The notes under the pieces are model-generated. The model was given only the letters and a program-made list of their open reading frames with translations. It ran no database searches and was not told the DNA's origin. The translations under genes were made by a program, and so were the position numbers. Of a stretch of 22,240 nucleotides of DNA, positions 1,758-11,413 are shown in pieces. Position 1 is the stretch's first letter. Each line of letters begins with the position of its first letter. The stretch is from positions 1 through 22,240 of IMG/VR virus record IMGVR_UViG_3300043783_000023; one strand, given 5' to 3'. This DNA is from a virus.

Positions 1758-2428
1758 GATCCGACGCCGAAACCCGTGAACTATGTTACAAAGCTATCGG
1801 CGTCGATCCGAACGACGTAGCTAACTTCCCCAAGCTGGCCTTCGCTATTCGCTGCGTTGGCGGCCAAGATAAAGCTATCGAGTACCTCCGCTCCGCCGGG
1901 ACCGTTCCTGCCTTACGTTTCCTTGCCGTCTACGACGATCTTATCCTGCCTGAGATGGTACGTCGTCTCCTTCCCATCGAGGCATTCTGTGTAGCGGCGA
2001 AAATAACCTTCGGCCAATTCGTAACCGATCTATCCTCGGCGGTGCGACAAGTACGCCAGTTTGAGGGTTCCGTTAGAGCGGCGGAAGCGCATCCTAAAAT
2101 TGTAGAAGTGTCGTCGGCACTGGCTGAGGCGGGAGATATAGACCATGCTGTGCTAAACATGAAGCACATGGGATTCCTGCCGCTGCCCAAGGGATCGCAG
2201 GTGTCGGTGAACGTTAACGCGAATGCCAACGCCAACGCGCAATCCGCCAGCGTGTCCACGGTTGCGCCATCGCCGGAGAATACTATCCGGCGGCTGGTGG
2301 GAAAGTTCAATCTGCCAGCGCGAGAACCGGCCCAGTTGCCAGAAGCGCGGGAGGCGGTGCCGCTGGTAATGGAACGCGAAGGTGAGGCAATGACGGTCGA
2401 ACAGGAATACGAAGAGGACGAAGACTGA
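1754..2428 (+). CDS. Probable terminase small subunit-like protein (224 aa)
   Basis: Starts at GTG 1754 in a GTGA overlap and ends in a TGATG overlap with the methyltransferase gene. The ~224-residue protein is predominantly helical. Residues ~100-150 (VRAAEAHPKIVEVSSALAEA, then MKHMGFLPLPKGSQV) resemble a segment I associate with phage small terminases and similar HTH-type DNA-recognition proteins, where 'GFLP.PKGSQ' follows a helical DNA-binding/oligomerisation region. An Asn/Ala repeat (NVNANANANAQ, ~153-163) and a Pro-rich, acidic tail follow. The position just upstream of the large terminase also suits a small subunit, which would recognise the packaging site and regulate the motor. The assignment rests on weak motif likeness and position; it could be an unrelated DNA-binding protein. 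Confidence 0.5.
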   Translation: MRSDAETRELCYKAIGVDPNDVANFPKLAFAIRCVGGQDKAIEYLRSAGTVPALRFLAVYDDLILPEMVRRLLPIEAFCVAAKITFGQFVTDLSSAVRQVRQFEGSVRAAEAHPKIVEVSSALAEAGDIDHAVLNMKHMGFLPLPKGSQVSVNVNANANANAQSASVSTVAPSPENTIRRLVGKFNLPAREPAQLPEAREAVPLVMEREGEAMTVEQEYEEDED

Positions 2429-3036
2429 TGCGTGTTCTGGATTTATTTTGTGGTGCTGGTGGAGCCGCGATGGGATTGCACCGCGCTTGGCCTGGCGCAG
2501 AGATCGTTGGAGTGGATATTAAACCGCAGCCACGCTACCCATTCATATTCGTGCAAGCGGATGCGATGGAATATCCGTTAGGGGGATTTGATTTCGTGTG
2601 GGCTAGTCCGCCCTGTCAGCACTATACCCAGATGTTAAATCATGGGCTCACTTCCCGAGACGGTCATCCCGATCTTATAGGCAAGGTACGCGCCAGATTA
2701 TTTCGTAGTAGAACTAAGTGGGTAATAGAGAACGTCGCGGGTGCTCCGCTAGTTGATGCCGTCATGTTGTGTGGTTTGATGTTCGGCCTGCAAACCCTAC
2801 GACATCGGTATTTTGAGTCTCCAATCTGTTTGCGGGCACCCCAACACATAAAGCACGTCGGTAAAGGAATCCGCAATCAGCGTGACGGTGGGCAATATTA
2901 TCGTTGCTATGGCCATGAAACTGGCCAGCGCCAGTGGGGTAAGGCGATGGGCATTGATTGGATGAAGACTCCTGAGTTGGCGCAGGCCATTCCTCCAGCC
3001 TATTCCGAATACATAGCGAGGCAACTTGTACTGTAG
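2428..3036 (+). CDS. DNA (cytosine-5) methyltransferase, compact phage type (202 aa)
   Basis: The enzyme transfers a methyl group from S-adenosylmethionine to C5 of cytosine in DNA. Signature motifs are in order: motif I DLFCGAGG (residues ~5-12, SAM binding), motif IV ASPPCQ (~59-64, catalytic Cys63), motif VI ENV (101-103), a motif VIII-like RHRYFE (125-130) and a motif X-like IPPAYSEYI (188-196). At 202 residues it is much shorter than restriction-type Dcm/HhaI enzymes (over 300), with a reduced target-recognition region. Compact forms like this are common in phages. ATG 2428 overlaps the preceding stop (TGATG), and the end overlaps the large terminase by 11 bases. Self-protection of phage DNA against restriction is the likely role; sequence specificity cannot be read. 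Confidence 0.9.
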   Translation: MRVLDLFCGAGGAAMGLHRAWPGAEIVGVDIKPQPRYPFIFVQADAMEYPLGGFDFVWASPPCQHYTQMLNHGLTSRDGHPDLIGKVRARLFRSRTKWVIENVAGAPLVDAVMLCGLMFGLQTLRHRYFESPICLRAPQHIKHVGKGIRNQRDGGQYYRCYGHETGQRQWGKAMGIDWMKTPELAQAIPPAYSEYIARQLVL

Positions 3037-5299
3037 CCGCCACGTTGCTCGACGAATAGCCCTCGCCGAATCCGACCTCCGCGACCAAGGCATTCCCTTT
3101 GAATTGACCCGCCACGAAGTCGCCGAGATCGACGCCTTCGAGGATGAACTCCGGCGCGGCGGCAAATACCTATTCGGCCAAACCGGACTCCCCATCGCTA
3201 CCCAGAATCTCGAAGAGTGGCAGTCGCGCTGGATGCTCAACGAACAACTTCTGGTGATGTGCGATGCCCAGTACGCTCTCACCCGCTACGGTTGGGTAAC
3301 CGATGAGGAAGGCGTTATACGACGCTTCAGCTTCCGCATGGCGCAACAGTTGTTGTTCAACGTGATCGCGGACCTCGAAGACCGTGACGCGGCGATTGAA
3401 ATAATGATCCTGAAGGCGCGGCAGCTCGGCATGACCACAGTCGTCGAGCTCCTGATCATGTTCCGTATCATCTTCTCGAACGGCGTCAACGCCATCATCG
3501 CCTCCGCCGACCGGCAGAAATCCAAGATGATGGGCAAGAAACTTCTGATGGGCTACGATATGCTTCCCATCTGGCTGCGGCCCCAGTACACCTCGCGTGT
3601 GGAGACGGAAAATGGAGAACTCACGTTCGGCCAGCTCAATTCTGGCGTCTATGTACAACACGGTAACCAGATGTCCGGCATTGCTCGCGGCAGCACTCCG
3701 ACTCTATACCACCTCTCCGAGTGCGCGTCTTTCACCAATGCAAAGGAACAAATTGAAGCGTCTCTATTCAAGGCTGTCCACGCTTCACCTTCGATATTCG
3801 GAATCCTTGAGAGCACTGGAGAAGGTGACGAAGGTTGGTGGGCGGAAACTTGGCACTACTCGAAAGCCAACTGGGCCTCGCGCACCTGCCGCCTCTGCCC
3901 GATCTTCTTCCCCTGGGTCATCGGACGCGACCTCTATCCGAAGCCTGCGTGGCTGAAGATGCGCCCGGTGCCCGAAGCGTTCTACGAGCATCGACTCCCC
4001 GACACCAAGGAACACGTCGCTCGTGTCGAAGCTTACATCGCCAACACTCCTCTCCTCTCCCGCCAACTCGGCCCGCGATGGACCATGCCCATCGAGCAGC
4101 AATGGTTCTGGGAAGTCGGTCATGAGGAACACAAGGCCAAGGGTATGGAAGGGATTTGGTATCAGGAGATGGCCGGGGACGATATCGAAGCCTTGCAGCG
4201 CTCCACGGAATCCGTCTTCGGCCATGACGTGATGGTTAACGTAGAGAAGGCAGCAGCTACATCTTTTCTTGAATACGCGATCACTGGGCAGTCCATTGAG
4301 GACGACCCCAACAACGGCAAGGGGATGCCAAATACGGAGGATATTGATTATGGAACATCAGATAAACCAAGGCAGAGGGAAGTGGTCACCTTCAACTCCA
4401 ATCGTGGTGATTCCTATCGCTGGGAGCTTATTCCCCTCCATCACGACATGGCTTACGTCAACTCCCTCAAGACTAAACCTGATGCGTTCCGCGAGTACGC
4501 GAATGGTAGACTCATGGTGTTCTGCCCTCCGACTCCCGGTATCGACTACTCTATCGGAGTTGATACTTCTAATGGGATGGGAGAAGACTCCACAGTTATC
4601 TGTGTTACTGCGCCCGCTCAGAGACGTGGCCAGCCGGATATACAAGTTGCGGAGTTCCGTTCTGCCTATGTCTCCCATGTTGAGGCATATGCTTTTATAA
4701 TGTGCATCGCCACCTACTACTCCCGCTACATGGAAGACTCGACCCCGCACCGCAATCCCATCGTCGGCGTGGAGCAGATAGCGAGCGTGGGAGACGTGGC
4801 CCAAGTGCAGATGCGCAAGATGGGCTACACCCGCTTCCCCTCGTTCATCCGCTACGACGGCAAGGATCTCAAGAAGCAGAAGTCGAAGAAGATCGGCTGG
4901 TACACCAACGTTTGGTCGCGGCCCATTCTCGTAGACAGCTTCGTCCACTCCGTCCAAAATGGCTGGTACGTCATCAACTCTCCGTGGCTGATCGACGAAT
5001 GCAAACATTTCGAGGTCCACTACACCGCCAGCGGCAAGGAGAAGAAGGAGCATGAGGAAGGAGAGCATGACGACGGGCTGTTCGCGGCGGCGATCTCGGA
5101 AATAATAGTGAACGATCTGAAGTCCATGACCGAACGCTCTAAGAAGCGATTCGGTGCCGCCGACCAGCAGGCGCTCCCGCCGATCAACGTAGAAAAGTAT
5201 GCCGGGAATGTTTTCTCTACCAAGCGCGAGGGGAATCGTGCTATATCTATGAGCGATATCATTTACAGTTCCACAGCCGAGCTAGATAGGTGGCGCTGA
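3026..5299 (+). CDS. terL: Terminase large subunit (DNA-packaging ATPase/nuclease, 757 aa)
   Basis: This motor protein cuts concatemeric DNA and pumps it into the capsid through the portal. The N-terminal ATPase has a Walker A-like KARQLGMTT (residues 130-138), a Walker B-like LYHLSE (227-232) with the catalytic Glu, and a coupling motif ESTGEG (262-267). The C-terminal RNase H-like nuclease shows GVDTSNGMGEDST (Asp512), VGVEQ (Glu582) and EHDDGLFAA (Asp681/682), the expected three-acid metal site. At ~757 residues it is long for the family; an acidic, low-complexity stretch around 423-450 separates the two domains. The start is taken as TTG 3026 behind GAGG (3018-3021), overlapping the methyltransferase. 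An internal start cannot be excluded, since the next ATG is at about codon 70. Confidence 0.93.
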   Translation: MYCSRHVARRIALAESDLRDQGIPFELTRHEVAEIDAFEDELRRGGKYLFGQTGLPIATQNLEEWQSRWMLNEQLLVMCDAQYALTRYGWVTDEEGVIRRFSFRMAQQLLFNVIADLEDRDAAIEIMILKARQLGMTTVVELLIMFRIIFSNGVNAIIASADRQKSKMMGKKLLMGYDMLPIWLRPQYTSRVETENGELTFGQLNSGVYVQHGNQMSGIARGSTPTLYHLSECASFTNAKEQIEASLFKAVHASPSIFGILESTGEGDEGWWAETWHYSKANWASRTCRLCPIFFPWVIGRDLYPKPAWLKMRPVPEAFYEHRLPDTKEHVARVEAYIANTPLLSRQLGPRWTMPIEQQWFWEVGHEEHKAKGMEGIWYQEMAGDDIEALQRSTESVFGHDVMVNVEKAAATSFLEYAITGQSIEDDPNNGKGMPNTEDIDYGTSDKPRQREVVTFNSNRGDSYRWELIPLHHDMAYVNSLKTKPDAFREYANGRLMVFCPPTPGIDYSIGVDTSNGMGEDSTVICVTAPAQRRGQPDIQVAEFRSAYVSHVEAYAFIMCIATYYSRYMEDSTPHRNPIVGVEQIASVGDVAQVQMRKMGYTRFPSFIRYDGKDLKKQKSKKIGWYTNVWSRPILVDSFVHSVQNGWYVINSPWLIDECKHFEVHYTASGKEKKEHEEGEHDDGLFAAAISEIIVNDLKSMTERSKKRFGAADQQALPPINVEKYAGNVFSTKREGNRAISMSDIIYSSTAELDRWR

Positions 5300-5800
5300 A
5301 TGTATTGGCGTGAAGTCAGCAAGTGTGACAAATCCGCGATTGCTTTTGTTCAGCCCCATTACTCCATTGCCACGCCAAACGCCCAAGAGCTGGGACCACC
5401 GGGAGTAAAGCTGGTACTAATGGGAACCGACAATAAAGCTGTGTGGGGAAGCCACCGTCCTGCGCCGTGGGCTAAACGGACTCATGGCGTAAAACGCATG
5501 GATGGATTCGAGGGTCACTCCTGTTTTATATTTCGTAACGACGGCGGTCCTCTAAGTTCTGAAATCATCCGACAGGCTGTGGCGATTACGGCTATGGAAT
5601 GGAACCTTGCTCCGTTCATCACTTACGTTGCCATCGACAAGGTTAAACGAAAGCGCGATCCGGGGCGCTGCTTTAAGCGGGCTGGATTCGTGCCAGTGCG
5701 AATAAAAAACAAGACTAAGCACGGCCCGATGTTACGAATGGAAATGAGTCAAGACGAGGTATGTCGATGCGTTAAGGAATTTCTTGTGGGGGATTGCTGA
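5300..5800 (+). CDS. Mom-like / GNAT-fold protein, putative DNA-modification enzyme (166 aa)
   Basis: ATG 5300 follows the terminase stop with no gap, and the gene ends in a TGATG overlap. Two segments stand out: FRNDGGPLSSEIIRQAV (78-94) and TYVAIDKVKRKRDPGRCFKR followed by AGF (~108-130). The second fits the C-terminal acetyl-CoA-fold signature in which a Cys/Phe-Lys-x-Ala-Gly-Phe helix closes the GNAT fold. The N-terminal HYS (20-22) and VWGSHRP segments recall phage Mu Mom and related phage proteins. Mom modifies adenine bases in phage DNA and blocks many restriction enzymes. The neighbouring cytosine methyltransferase makes a DNA-modification role plausible. A generic acetyltransferase is the main alternative. 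The gene is AT-richer than the terminase. Confidence 0.5.
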   Translation: MYWREVSKCDKSAIAFVQPHYSIATPNAQELGPPGVKLVLMGTDNKAVWGSHRPAPWAKRTHGVKRMDGFEGHSCFIFRNDGGPLSSEIIRQAVAITAMEWNLAPFITYVAIDKVKRKRDPGRCFKRAGFVPVRIKNKTKHGPMLRMEMSQDEVCRCVKEFLVGDC

Positions 5801-6225
5801 TGGCTATTCACCTTTTTTACTTTGAGTCTCCGACCGGCGATATCCAACTCCCCCCGAACGATGAATGCTACTTCACCTTCTGCCCTGCTGGCTACGACCG
5901 CCGCGAGGCCAACACTCTTGCGGAAGTGGACGCCTTGCAGAAGCGGCTCCAGCAGCAGACCTACGAGCGCCAGCATTCCGAGTGGGAGCGCGACGAACAA
6001 ACCTGGGCGGCATCGCGCAAGTGGGTGAGCGACTCGCTGCACGCCACCCTGCGATCATCCTGCACGTCTGAGTACGAGCGCGAGTTCATCCGAAGTTATA
6101 TCCAACTCAAGGAAGAGAAGCGTGCCAAGTACCGCTCGCGGTTCATCTGCGACCGGGCTTACCTTGAATTGAGAGAGAATGATCGCGCTCGTAACGCCGA
6201 AGAAACTCTGGGTGAATCCTTGTGA
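5800..6225 (+). CDS. Conserved-looking hypothetical phage protein (141 aa)
   Basis: ATG 5800 shares a base with the preceding TGA (TGATG), and the sequence begins MAIHLFYFESPTGDIQLPPN. Residues ~1-40 form a compact, aromatic-rich N-terminal part. From ~45 the protein is a long charged helix or coiled coil (ALQKRLQQQTYERQHSEWER) with a second helical block (YEREFIRSYIQLKEEKRAKY). No catalytic motif, membrane segment or signal peptide is visible. It lies between the Mom-like gene and the portal and is coupled to the next gene by a GTGA overlap, so it is probably made with the packaging genes. I cannot assign a function. Confidence 0.65.
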   Translation: MAIHLFYFESPTGDIQLPPNDECYFTFCPAGYDRREANTLAEVDALQKRLQQQTYERQHSEWERDEQTWAASRKWVSDSLHATLRSSCTSEYEREFIRSYIQLKEEKRAKYRSRFICDRAYLELRENDRARNAEETLGESL

Positions 6226-6431
6226 GACTCTGCTTCGTCTTCTCGACGGGTGGCATCTCCCTCTGCGACCACGAAGACGCGCCGCCGATCATTGAGCTAG
6301 GCGAAGAAGTCGAGGACGAACATGGTAATGTGTATGCAGCTGAGAGACGTAGGGTTATGGAACGTCTTAGCCTCCTGACTCACATCGACCCGGTTAACGG
6401 GATCGTATTCTACGAAGAGGTCCATCGCTGA
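6222..6431 (+). CDS. Small acidic hypothetical protein (69 aa)
   Basis: GTG 6222 overlaps the previous stop (GTGA), and its TGA shares a base with the portal ATG (TGATG), so the gene is coupled on both sides. The product (MRLCFVFSTGGISLCDHEDA...) is about 69 residues and acidic, with a probable beta-rich N-terminus and a short basic helix (AAERRRVMERLSLL). No motif is recognised. The conserved operon position immediately before the portal and the tight overlaps argue that it is real. Confidence 0.6.
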   Translation: MRLCFVFSTGGISLCDHEDAPPIIELGEEVEDEHGNVYAAERRRVMERLSLLTHIDPVNGIVFYEEVHR

Positions 6432-8500
6432 TGCCCGGTGACGACGGCTACGACGTACCCTATCGCCAGTGGCAAGCCCCGCCTGCGGCATCGAAGGACG
6501 ATACAAAATTAGGATGGTTGCAAGAGTGCCAAGAAACTGGGGTGGCGTGGCTGAAATGCCAACGCGGCACCTCCGACTGGCGTAAATCCCTCGACGTGAT
6601 CTCCGGCAAGATCATGTCGGCGGATATTCCGCAGTACCGTTCGCAACTCAACACGAATCACCTCAAGCGGAATATTAGAGAGATCGTCGGCGTCCTCTCT
6701 AAACTCCGTCCGCTGTGGGGATACTCTTCCAACAACCCGGCCTTCGCGGCGCAGGCGAATCAAATGAACCTGCTGACCCGCGCCATCTTCCTAGAGAACG
6801 ACTTTGACCGCTCGATCAAAGAAGCACTGCAATATGCCGCAGCCACATGCACTGGATGGATACGTCCGATTTACTCCCGCGATCTGGTTAGCGGGGAAGG
6901 TTCTATCCAGCTTCTTAGCTATGGCGCTCCTTGTGTGCTTCCGACTCAGTTGCCTCCGTCAGGAAATTTTCAAAAAGCCTACGCCATGACCCTGCTTGAC
7001 GAGATGCCGATATTCATGGCGCACGCCCTCTTTCCTACGAAGCAGCATCTCCTGAAGCCGACCTCCTCTCTCTACTGGTACTCGAACGAAATCCACAAAT
7101 CGGCGCAAGGCAATATCTGGAAGCGCATCTTCGGGAAATCCACCTCCTCCGGTCCCAGCAACATGCCCGACCTGATGATCCCCATCCGCTACACTACGAT
7201 CATCGACCTCACGCGAAACACCACCCAGCAGATGATCCCGATGGGCGAGTTCGGCTCGACGTGGTACTACGAAGTCCCATTCATCGGCATGGATATCCCT
7301 GATGGCAATGGTGGAATGCGCAAAGCCGATGACAACGACGCTCGCCTCTATCCCTACCGCCGCCTGATGATCTCCTCCGAGAGCGTAGTCCTCTACGACG
7401 GCCCTTCATTCAACTGGCACGGACGCTCGGACCTGATTCCGTTCTCAACCGACCACTGGCCGTGGGAACCTCTGGGATTCTCGATGGTGCGCGACGGCTA
7501 CGATCTTCAGCAGACCATCACCGAGCAGGAGCGTGGCATGGCGGACAAGAAACGGGCGCAGCTTGACCCGGCGCTCGGTTACGATATCAACTCTGTGAGC
7601 AGCCGTGAAGCCAAGGCGTTCGACCCCATGCAACCCCGCGCCCGCGTTGGCTACGACGGCTCCCAAGTTGACAAGCCGTTCGTGATGCCCATCGACCCGC
7701 AGATTATCAAGCTCGACCCCACCGACTTCACTTGGCTCGAATACCTCCAGACCTCAATGGATTCGCAGCACGCGATCAAGGACGCACTGGCACTCGCCAA
7801 AGCCCGCATGGCAGGCGACGACTTGGAGAAATTACTGGAAGCTCTAGGCCCTATCATCGAGGATATGTCTCGCTCGATGGAGCCTCCCATTCGTGAGATG
7901 GCGGATCAGACGAAATATCTGATTCTGCAATATCTCCCCACCGCTCGCGTCATGCAATATATCGGCGAAGACAATATCACCCGCGAAACCTTCGACTACG
8001 ATCCTTCTCGACTTGTGCCATCGCACATGCCGGGAGAGAATCCGGGCACCGCCGACGCGCCTGCGAAATCCGCCTTCGATCAGATCAAGCGTGCGCGAAT
8101 GTTCGCGGGCAATCTGAAATATATGGTGACACCGCATTCGGCGCATGAGATCACTCAGCTAAAAATGCAGCTAGGACTTGTGCAACTCAAGAAAGCGGGC
8201 GTGAAGATAGATTCGCAGACACTCGCCGAGAGTTGGAATATTCCTAATTACGGACAAATAAAAGGAAGCACTGTGATGGAAAAGTGGCGTGAGGAGCAGG
8301 AAGAAGATTTACAATTCGCTGCTCGCATGAAAGAGATCGGAGTCGATGCCATGCCATCGCAACCCGGTGCGCCCGCTCCCGGCAAGTCCGGTCCTGAAGG
8401 TCGTCCCGCGTCTGGCAATCAAGCGCCAGCATTGAAGCAGCGCACCGATGGATCATCAACGATTACACAATCTGAAGGCGGGGGTCAAAACATACAGTGA
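6431..8500 (+). CDS. Portal protein (head-to-tail connector, 689 aa)
   Basis: Portal proteins form the dodecameric ring at one capsid vertex through which DNA enters and leaves. The ~689-residue length, the position after the large terminase and before the scaffold/coat genes, and the all-helical N-terminal region (HLKRNIREIVGVLSKLRPLW) fit a large podovirus-type portal. A mid-protein block around residues 335-360 (FSTDHWPWEPLGFSMVRDGY), followed by a helical stem region (DLQQTITEQERG), matches what I associate with this family. The C-terminal ~60 residues are low-complexity (Pro, Gly, Gln, Ser) and probably disordered. ATG 6431 overlaps the previous stop; the end overlaps the next gene by GTGA. 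The family is assigned by context and pattern, not by a catalytic motif. Confidence 0.8.
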   Translation: MPGDDGYDVPYRQWQAPPAASKDDTKLGWLQECQETGVAWLKCQRGTSDWRKSLDVISGKIMSADIPQYRSQLNTNHLKRNIREIVGVLSKLRPLWGYSSNNPAFAAQANQMNLLTRAIFLENDFDRSIKEALQYAAATCTGWIRPIYSRDLVSGEGSIQLLSYGAPCVLPTQLPPSGNFQKAYAMTLLDEMPIFMAHALFPTKQHLLKPTSSLYWYSNEIHKSAQGNIWKRIFGKSTSSGPSNMPDLMIPIRYTTIIDLTRNTTQQMIPMGEFGSTWYYEVPFIGMDIPDGNGGMRKADDNDARLYPYRRLMISSESVVLYDGPSFNWHGRSDLIPFSTDHWPWEPLGFSMVRDGYDLQQTITEQERGMADKKRAQLDPALGYDINSVSSREAKAFDPMQPRARVGYDGSQVDKPFVMPIDPQIIKLDPTDFTWLEYLQTSMDSQHAIKDALALAKARMAGDDLEKLLEALGPIIEDMSRSMEPPIREMADQTKYLILQYLPTARVMQYIGEDNITRETFDYDPSRLVPSHMPGENPGTADAPAKSAFDQIKRARMFAGNLKYMVTPHSAHEITQLKMQLGLVQLKKAGVKIDSQTLAESWNIPNYGQIKGSTVMEKWREEQEEDLQFAARMKEIGVDAMPSQPGAPAPGKSGPEGRPASGNQAPALKQRTDGSSTITQSEGGGQNIQ

Positions 8501-10085: not shown

Positions 10086-10916
10086 ATGCAGACTTATGCA
10101 GAGTTATTGAAATCTCAGGGAGCAACAGACGACGACATCAAAGTGCTGGCGACTCCACTCGCCGAGCGCGTCTACGCCAAGCAGCAGGAAGCCATCGTTG
10201 CCGCGCAAGCCGCCGCCGACAAAGCTGCCAAGCAGGCTGAGTCGTACCAGAAATGGTACAACGAGCAAGCCCTCCCCTACGTCTCCGAAGTCGAATCCAA
10301 ACTCAAGGTCAGTGAAGCTACTCTGACCGGGGAACGCGCTCGCCTGAAGGCATTGCAAGAAGCGGGCCTGATCGAAGTGGCCAACCAAGACGAAGCGGCC
10401 AAAAAGGCGGCAGAGGAAGCCGCGAAAGCAGGCAACGTGAATTTTGATCCAACCAAATTTGTCCCCCGAGAGCAATTCAATGAACTCGCCATTAAAGCCG
10501 CCGACTCTATCACCCTGGTCGCCGACCTCGCACAGGAACATGCCGCTCTCGGTCTTCCGCCTGTATCATGGCGCACGCTGAAGGCCGAAGCGGCAACGGC
10601 GAATCAAGACGTTGAGTCCTACTGGAAGACCAAGTTCAACGTGGAGCAGAAGCGCTCTGAACGTGCCGCCACTGAGAAAGCGGCTTACGAGAAGCAGATC
10701 GCGGACGCCGCCGTGGCCAAGTATCGCCAAGAGCATCCGGCGTCTGGAGTCAACCCGGCTCTCGGCTTCGGCGCTCCCTCGACCAATCCATTCACCAACA
10801 AGATTCCCTCCGCCTCCGACGCCACTATTCCGTGGAACCGTTCGGATTCGGAGAAGGTTAATTCACGCATCAACAAAGTTCTGGCAGCACATCCCGATAT
10901 GACGGGCAACGCATGA
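10086..10916 (+). CDS. Probable capsid scaffolding protein (276 aa)
   Basis: ATG 10086 follows AAGGAGACACC. The 276-residue protein is dominated by charged Ala/Lys/Glu/Gln coiled coil from ~30 to 115 (AKQQEAIVAAQAAADKAAKQ; EVESKLKVSEATLTGERARL), with a second helical block at ~175-225 and a Pro/Gly/Ser-rich C-terminus with a short conserved-looking end (EKVNSRINKVLAAHP). This composition and the place just before the major capsid gene are typical of tailed-phage scaffolds, which direct coat-protein assembly and then leave the head. A small homing-endonuclease gene now separates it from the coat gene. The assignment rests on composition and context only. Confidence 0.65.
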   Translation: MQTYAELLKSQGATDDDIKVLATPLAERVYAKQQEAIVAAQAAADKAAKQAESYQKWYNEQALPYVSEVESKLKVSEATLTGERARLKALQEAGLIEVANQDEAAKKAAEEAAKAGNVNFDPTKFVPREQFNELAIKAADSITLVADLAQEHAALGLPPVSWRTLKAEAATANQDVESYWKTKFNVEQKRSERAATEKAAYEKQIADAAVAKYRQEHPASGVNPALGFGAPSTNPFTNKIPSASDATIPWNRSDSEKVNSRINKVLAAHPDMTGNA

Positions 10917-11413
10917 GTGACATTTACAAGTCGGCAGGTAAGCGTGGTCAGTGGAAGGCCGAGGAGTTCGATGGCCTAAAACCTACGGTCTATGACTGGG
11001 TGCGGATGGCAGCTTTCATCGACGGTGAGGGCTGTATTCAAATCAACCCGTATAAGAAGACGCGCAAGGTTCAAGTACGAATCGTGATAATTAACACGAA
11101 CGAAATTCTTCCATTGTGGTTGCAAGAAACATTCGGTGGACACATTGTTCTACGTACCTTTGACAATCCCAATTGGAAGACCTCTTACGCTTGGAGTTGT
11201 ACGGCGCAGCGTGCTTGCTGGATTCTGCACAACTGCTTGCCGTGGTTCCTGCTGAAGTCGGCGCAGGCAAAATTGTTGATGGAACTCCAAGAGCATATTG
11301 ACACTACGCCTCATGGTAGGGGCACCAGACTTTCAGAAGCAGATCACATATATCGTGATGCGATACATTCTCAAGTAAAGAAGCTCAACGCTAAAGGGCC
11401 GAGAGTTGACTAA
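10913..11413 (+). CDS. LAGLIDADG-family homing endonuclease (166 aa)
   Basis: ATG 10913 overlaps the scaffold stop (ATGA). The motif MAAFIDGEG at residues 32-40 is a LAGLIDADG helix with the catalytic acidic residue (Glu39), followed by CIQI on the first beta strand. Residues 102-123 (CWILHNCLPWFLLKSAQAKL) match the second conserved helix seen in single-motif enzymes, which act as homodimers on a long asymmetric DNA site. It is free-standing rather than inside an intron or intein, wedged between scaffold and coat genes. Its codons are AT-richer than its neighbours, which fits recent acquisition. A good ribosome site for the coat gene directly follows, so the insertion leaves coat expression intact. 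Whether it still cuts cannot be read. Confidence 0.8.
   Translation: MSDIYKSAGKRGQWKAEEFDGLKPTVYDWVRMAAFIDGEGCIQINPYKKTRKVQVRIVIINTNEILPLWLQETFGGHIVLRTFDNPNWKTSYAWSCTAQRACWILHNCLPWFLLKSAQAKLLMELQEHIDTTPHGRGTRLSEADHIYRDAIHSQVKKLNAKGPRVD

Follow-up and report, generated by a model that had tools for sequence, protein, structure and literature searches.

Whether DNA modification in a phage can be tied to the packaging of its genome is a question raised by a 22,240-base window, a single record of a soil-type bacterial virus, in which two candidate DNA-modification genes flank the large terminase. All three genes lie on the + strand: a small C5-type DNA cytosine methyltransferase (MTase; 202 aa, positions 2428 to 3036), the terminase large subunit (757 aa, 3026 to 5299), whose TTG start falls within the MTase gene, and a 166-aa protein with a predicted GNAT fold (5300 to 5800). 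The initial annotation had given this arrangement with exact coordinates. MTase and terminase share 11 bases (3026 to 3036), and the terminase stop TGA (5297 to 5299) directly precedes the ATG of the 166-aa gene at 5300. The initial annotation had proposed that the three genes are likely co-translated and that genome modification is coordinated with packaging. The first proposal suits the geometry of the locus. The MTase ATG at 2428 has one base in common with the stop of the preceding gene (TGATG, 2426 to 2430), the stop of the 166-aa gene has one in common with the ATG at 5800 of the following gene (TGATG, 5798 to 5802), and these stop-start overlaps, taken with the 11-base overlap, fit translational coupling as far as can be judged from the sequence.

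The surrounding genes belong to a backbone seen in related viruses, up115-up220-up77-up224-terminase-dn143-dn69-portal, which is clearest in the closest loci. The gene preceding the MTase, up224 (1754 to 2428, +), had no family match of note in profile searches and is a putative small terminase by position alone; it lies upstream of the terminase in the related loci L007, L008, L010 to L013, L016, L051, L052, L054, L055, and L095. Downstream are dn143 (5800 to 6225, +), recognized by synteny as the gene directly 3′ of the terminase in relatives, the small gene dn69 (6222 to 6431, +), also found in L007, L009, and L010, and a P22-like portal protein (6431 to 8500, +; PF16510, 0.0017; PHROG 156, 0.0052), which is syntenic with the annotated portal of phage Tunturi_1. 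For dn143 the open reading frame list gives a TTG at 5794, and L007 favors the ATG at 5800. The MTase and 166-aa genes are accessory to this backbone, at the up224/terminase and terminase/dn143 junctions, respectively.

All three open reading frames are considered real genes because of their PHROG matches, which for the terminase were to PHROG 2 (2.5e-10) and PHROG 5989 (7.4e-10). A search with the terminase recovered 37 viral loci, and its TTG start is at the same position as an ATG, GTG, or ATT start in relatives. Among phage records, only Tunturi_1 and Tunturi_2, phages of Tunturiibacter, matched it over at least 80% of its length (29% identity), and by these sequence relationships the host is probably acidobacterial. 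The Tunturi phages are described as podovirus-shaped (PMC11924767). Terminase genes in five loci (L037, L038, L039, L040, and L043) carry in-frame inserts of 852 to 1119 bases that contain no stops and have an intein-like beginning, and in the L052 record both terminase pieces lie in a single frame of 1019 aa.

The call of a cytosine-C5 MTase, made firmly in the initial annotation, was upheld. The protein matches PHROG 363 (1.5e-30) over residues 1 to 198 and PF00145 (6.7e-5; 22.9 bits against a cutoff of 22) over residues 1 to 104 only. The catalytic Cys63 of SPPC and Glu101 of ENV are present in 73/73 aligned rows, the window included, with Arg125 in 70/73 and Arg127 in 71/73; one relative (L047, 71% identical) has an in-frame stop and was excluded from both the alignment and the MTase tree. 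A separate target recognition domain would find little space in 202 aa, with only about 55 residues between motifs VIII and X. Small MTases are common in phages, with matches in 297 of 50,697 phage records. Members of PHROG 363 from Mycobacterium phage Optimus and Streptomyces phage Wakanda have the same length and motifs and are 47 to 50% identical over their full length to the window MTase, which differs from them only in its location at the up224/terminase junction.

The 166-aa protein is confidently predicted to be a GNAT fold, with the topology covering the whole domain. Folding from the single sequence was poor (pLDDT 41) and was superseded by a model built from an alignment of 66 of the 77 available sequences (the window plus the 76 viral loci that encode relatives), which reached a pLDDT of 92.4 and a pTM of 0.89. 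Using this model, Foldseek returned 10 solved chains at an E value of 0.001 or better, mostly spermidine N-acetyltransferases, and in a separate structure comparison 585 of 998 chains had Z scores of at least 8, with a top Z of 12.0. The 50 matches listed in that comparison were all acetyl- or acyltransferase-type entries or complexes containing one. At the sequence level the protein belongs to PHROG 24928 (9.3e-23), as do all 66 aligned rows, a family given in PHROGs as of unknown function. Pfam models matched none of the 66 rows, NCBIfam gave just two stray single-member matches, and PDB sequence searches with the protein and its profile found no relevant match.

Within this family, the window protein and that of L001, which are 76% identical, diverge at near-invariant positions; for example, the window has FVQPHYSIA where the family consensus is LADRHYSRQ. 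Selection was assessed by comparing each accessory gene to its nearest usable relative. Non-synonymous difference was 0.18 for the 166-aa gene against L001 and 0.19 for the MTase gene against L046, with synonymous sites saturated in both comparisons, which points to clear purifying selection on both genes relative to those sequences. Such selection between the window and L001 argues against decay of the 166-aa gene, and the subgroup formed by these two may differ in substrate.

Co-occurrence of the three genes in related phages had been named beforehand as the comparison that could overturn a link between modification and packaging, and the trio proved not to be conserved. Neither an MTase nor a GNAT gene was beside the terminase in the neighborhoods of any of the 37 terminase-related loci, and a GNAT profile matched none of 45 whole records, although the same profile recovered five of six control records, missing only Mu. 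PHROG 363 was detected in 10 of the 45 whole records, 7 of them selected for their MTase. Among 38 terminase-selected records the MTase family occurred in three (Tunturi_1, G158, and G150), never beside the terminase. The nearest long records, G127 (62,366 bases) and G130 (62,116 bases), carry neither gene and are probably near complete, since the circular Tunturi_1 record is 63,169 bases. Because the records are mostly fragments, these absences are not absolute.

Both genes are missing at the terminase of the closest loci. In L007 (terminase 91% identical) the gap is 2 bases at the GNAT site and 8 bases at the MTase site, with dn143 starting within the end of the terminase and up224 reaching the terminase start; in L010 (88% identical) the corresponding gaps are 109 and 32 bases. 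The terminase end itself is intact in the window. Asp-Arg-Trp-Arg is kept, encoded with AGG-TGG in place of the CGA-TGG of L007 (window 5285 to 5302 versus L007 10242 to 10260), a change that leaves the amino acids the same, abolishes the overlapping ATG, and yields a ribosome-site-like AGGTGG ahead of the GNAT ATG.

Composition also sets the two accessory genes apart. The MTase, the GNAT gene, and a homing endonuclease have GC3 values of 0.50, 0.52, and 0.54, respectively, compared to 0.616 to 0.711 for the other 13 genes measured, and they are the only genes with a negative codon fit. All three are compositional outliers of the window, with a foreign composition. The homing-endonuclease-like gene (10913 to 11413, +) matches the PHROG 5046 HNH endonucleases (2.1e-20), with LAGLIDADG_1 just under its cutoff, and precedes a major-capsid-like gene.

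The terminase/dn143 junction is a site of changing content. In 6 of 12 near loci compared, the window included, it is occupied by small open reading frames that do not resemble one another, encoding 39 aa (L010), 84 aa (L008, resembling an HTH protein), 59 aa (L009), 74 aa (L011), 64 aa (L095), and the 166-aa protein of the window. The gaps at this junction in L007, L012, L013, L016, L051, and L055 are 2 to 80 bases, and more distant loci have longer inserts in the space before the portal. In two loci a gene that by eye resembles IS200/IS605 TnpB lies between terminase and portal (L024, 6250 to 7434; L036, 13037 to 14221).

On the other side of the terminase, MTases have arrived repeatedly. 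One occupies the same slot as the window MTase in L055 (terminase 49% identical), while the MTase lies one gene further upstream in L051 and L095, two genes further in L052, 3.5 kb upstream on the other strand in L054, and far away in L049. In a tree of 32 of the 73 aligned rows, the window MTase pairs with that of L046 (support 95/83), a record without a terminase of this family, and the L055 MTase clusters with those of L059 and L060; at least four changes on the tree are needed to account for the label “same terminase family.” A shared ancestry of the MTases in this slot was ruled out by the placement of the window and L055 in different supported groups, and these different branches therefore imply repeated gains. 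Two MTase gains at the same site suggest a degree of positional preference. Besides the window, five of nine records have a small C5 MTase no more than 4 kb upstream of the terminase, compared to 1.6 expected (P = 0.004 for the upstream side alone, 0.058 counting either side), a post hoc excess in that the 4-kb limit was set after the data were seen and one record is just 5.3 kb. As regards the MTase in these phages, the initial statement that modification and packaging are usually encoded apart went too far.

These observations are best explained by a tailed phage, a relative of the acidobacterial Tunturi phages, that very probably gained two accessory genes in separate events, each fitted scarlessly into an existing gene junction, one before and one after the large terminase. 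Because close relatives lack both genes, the trio is more likely to represent two recent acquisitions than dedicated packaging-linked marking. In this sequence of events, the MTase would have entered the up224/terminase junction and the GNAT-fold gene the terminase/dn143 junction, and both would be expressed with the late operon via the stop-start overlaps and the ribosome-site-like sequence. The MTase would then make 5-methylcytosine in phage DNA, and the GNAT-fold protein would transfer an acyl-type group, with a DNA base as the most likely target, protecting against host restriction. Position beside the terminase would supply late expression, with no functional tie to packaging needed. Morons are accessory genes lodged in late operons of phages, and the window genes resemble them in lying at precise gene junctions, in their foreign composition, in their absence from sister phages, and in occupying a slot with changing content; they differ in that their expression seems to rely on overlaps.

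Gene positions were used to ask whether the GNAT family keeps company with packaging or with modification genes. In the 76 viral loci of the GNAT family, a terminase could be placed by PHROG 2 in 32 records and an MTase by PHROG 363 in 33. Taking one match per record and counting records as independent, although some are near copies (L180/L181 and L148/L156), the GNAT gene was within 5 kb of the terminase in 10/32, compared to 9.2 expected by random placement (P = 0.43). It was within 3 kb of the C5 MTase in 17/33, compared to 4.8 expected, a count never reached in 3000 simulations. Direct neighbors gave the same picture. Among 104 of the 109 same-strand direct neighbors (leaving out L175, a piece of the GNAT gene itself, and L189, L193, L195, and L197) were 10 PF00145, 3 Dam, 2 N6_N4, 1 D12, and 2 Terminase_6C proteins. 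Control genes 6 to 8 open reading frames away (118 of 121, leaving out L181 twice and L195) included 2 N6_N4 and 1 D12; PF00145 was absent among the 25 families listed of 40, so it accounts for at most 1/118. The GNAT family is linked to modification genes, not to the terminase, which makes a DNA-modification role of the 166-aa protein plausible. In Paenibacillus phage Lily, for example, a PHROG 24928 protein adjoins Dam-type and C5 MTases (LILY_60 to LILY_62), although that cluster lies in a helicase/RuvC gene region rather than beside the terminase. An exception favoring the initial annotation is L123 (2361 to 6614), where a small-terminase-like gene, a GNAT gene 53% identical to that of the window, a C5 MTase gene divided between two frames, and the gene for the large terminase stand in succession; it is an independent instance of a packaging cluster that contains modification-type genes. 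The direct neighbors also included a few phosphoadenosine phosphosulfate reductase-like genes (PHROG 33262, 3/104; PHROG 424, 2/104), and a gene just upstream of the GNAT gene in L149 (7128 to 7946) has the same look by eye.

A less probable, though still serious, alternative is that the GNAT-fold protein targets a protein or small molecule, such as host RNA polymerase, the ribosome, or a polyamine, and meets MTases simply because both reside in accessory regions. In fold comparisons, protein N-acetyltransferases and spermidine acetyltransferases match best, the sequence relation to Mom is not significant, and phage GNATs that modify host proteins have been described (PMC7824862). Against this alternative stands the excess of C5 MTases among direct neighbors over control genes from the same loci. 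A same-strand C5 MTase also lies within 3 kb in 7 of 27 bacterial-genome loci, mostly Paenibacillus, a figure from narrower home-made models that give 15/76 in the viral loci. In addition, both families keep the Mom His-Tyr pair without exception: His20-Tyr21 is found in 66/66 rows of the GNAT family and His58-Tyr59 of Mom in 16/16 Mom-type rows.

That the protein is a true Mom enzyme making the Mu-type adenine modification is doubtful. The solved Mu Mom structure (8bv8_A) matches the model with a Z of 11.3 and an rmsd of 3.1 over 133 residues, and the HYS motif and an Arg-Asn before a helix align between the two proteins. However, 8bv8_A ranks 43rd, level with unrelated GNATs in what amounts to a tie with the top Z. 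A search of the Mu genome with a PHROG 24928-family profile found no match at an E value of 1, and hhalign against Mom was not significant (E = 0.032, probability 1.6%). In a profile test of Mom membership, a score of 20.0 exceeded those of all 60 column shuffles (at most 17.0), but because the negative control, an unrelated MTase profile, scored higher (23.0 over 14 columns), this was not taken as evidence. Ser124 of Mom, mutated in 8bv8, pairs with Gly83 by MAFFT or with Ser87, retained in 74/77 rows of the 166-aa family, by hhalign. Mom is also longer (241 aa), and relatives of the window protein adjoin C5 and Dam MTases rather than Com regulation. As a phage gene linked to DNA modification with Mom-like fold and motifs, the 166-aa protein may plausibly work like Mom, but it has a PHROG family of its own and cannot be filed as Mom. 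The moderate Mom-like/GNAT call stood for the fold, and profile comparison gave no significant support to membership of the Mom family.

A dedicated unit in which MTase, terminase, and GNAT-fold protein mark DNA during loading is highly improbable: the coupled gene geometry, L123, and the repeated placement of MTases upstream of this terminase speak for it, and the absence of the trio from all relatives examined, the random distance of the GNAT family from terminases, and a foreign composition in both accessory genes but not in the terminase leave the proposed coordination of modification with packaging unsupported.

A more speculative reading, and one we consider rather unlikely, is that PHROG 24928 represents, after Mom, another family of GNAT-fold proteins that modify DNA bases. 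It would partner with C5 MTases, for instance by adding an acyl group to the base that the MTase targets or by marking the same sites, and would be portable, traveling with its partner or alone in phages and prophages of several phyla; in the window and L123 the partners would have been built into the packaging operon. Searches of a library of open-access papers found none on a terminase with MTase and Mom-like genes at its two ends and none on PHROG 24928 as a DNA modifier. The trio itself matters less, as an instance of late phage operons taking in anti-restriction-type genes at exact junctions with translation unbroken. If the GNAT-fold family does modify DNA, a phage family of “unknown function” would gain a testable role as a second GNAT-based DNA modification besides Mom, and such a role for an unassigned family would be the most useful outcome of this analysis.
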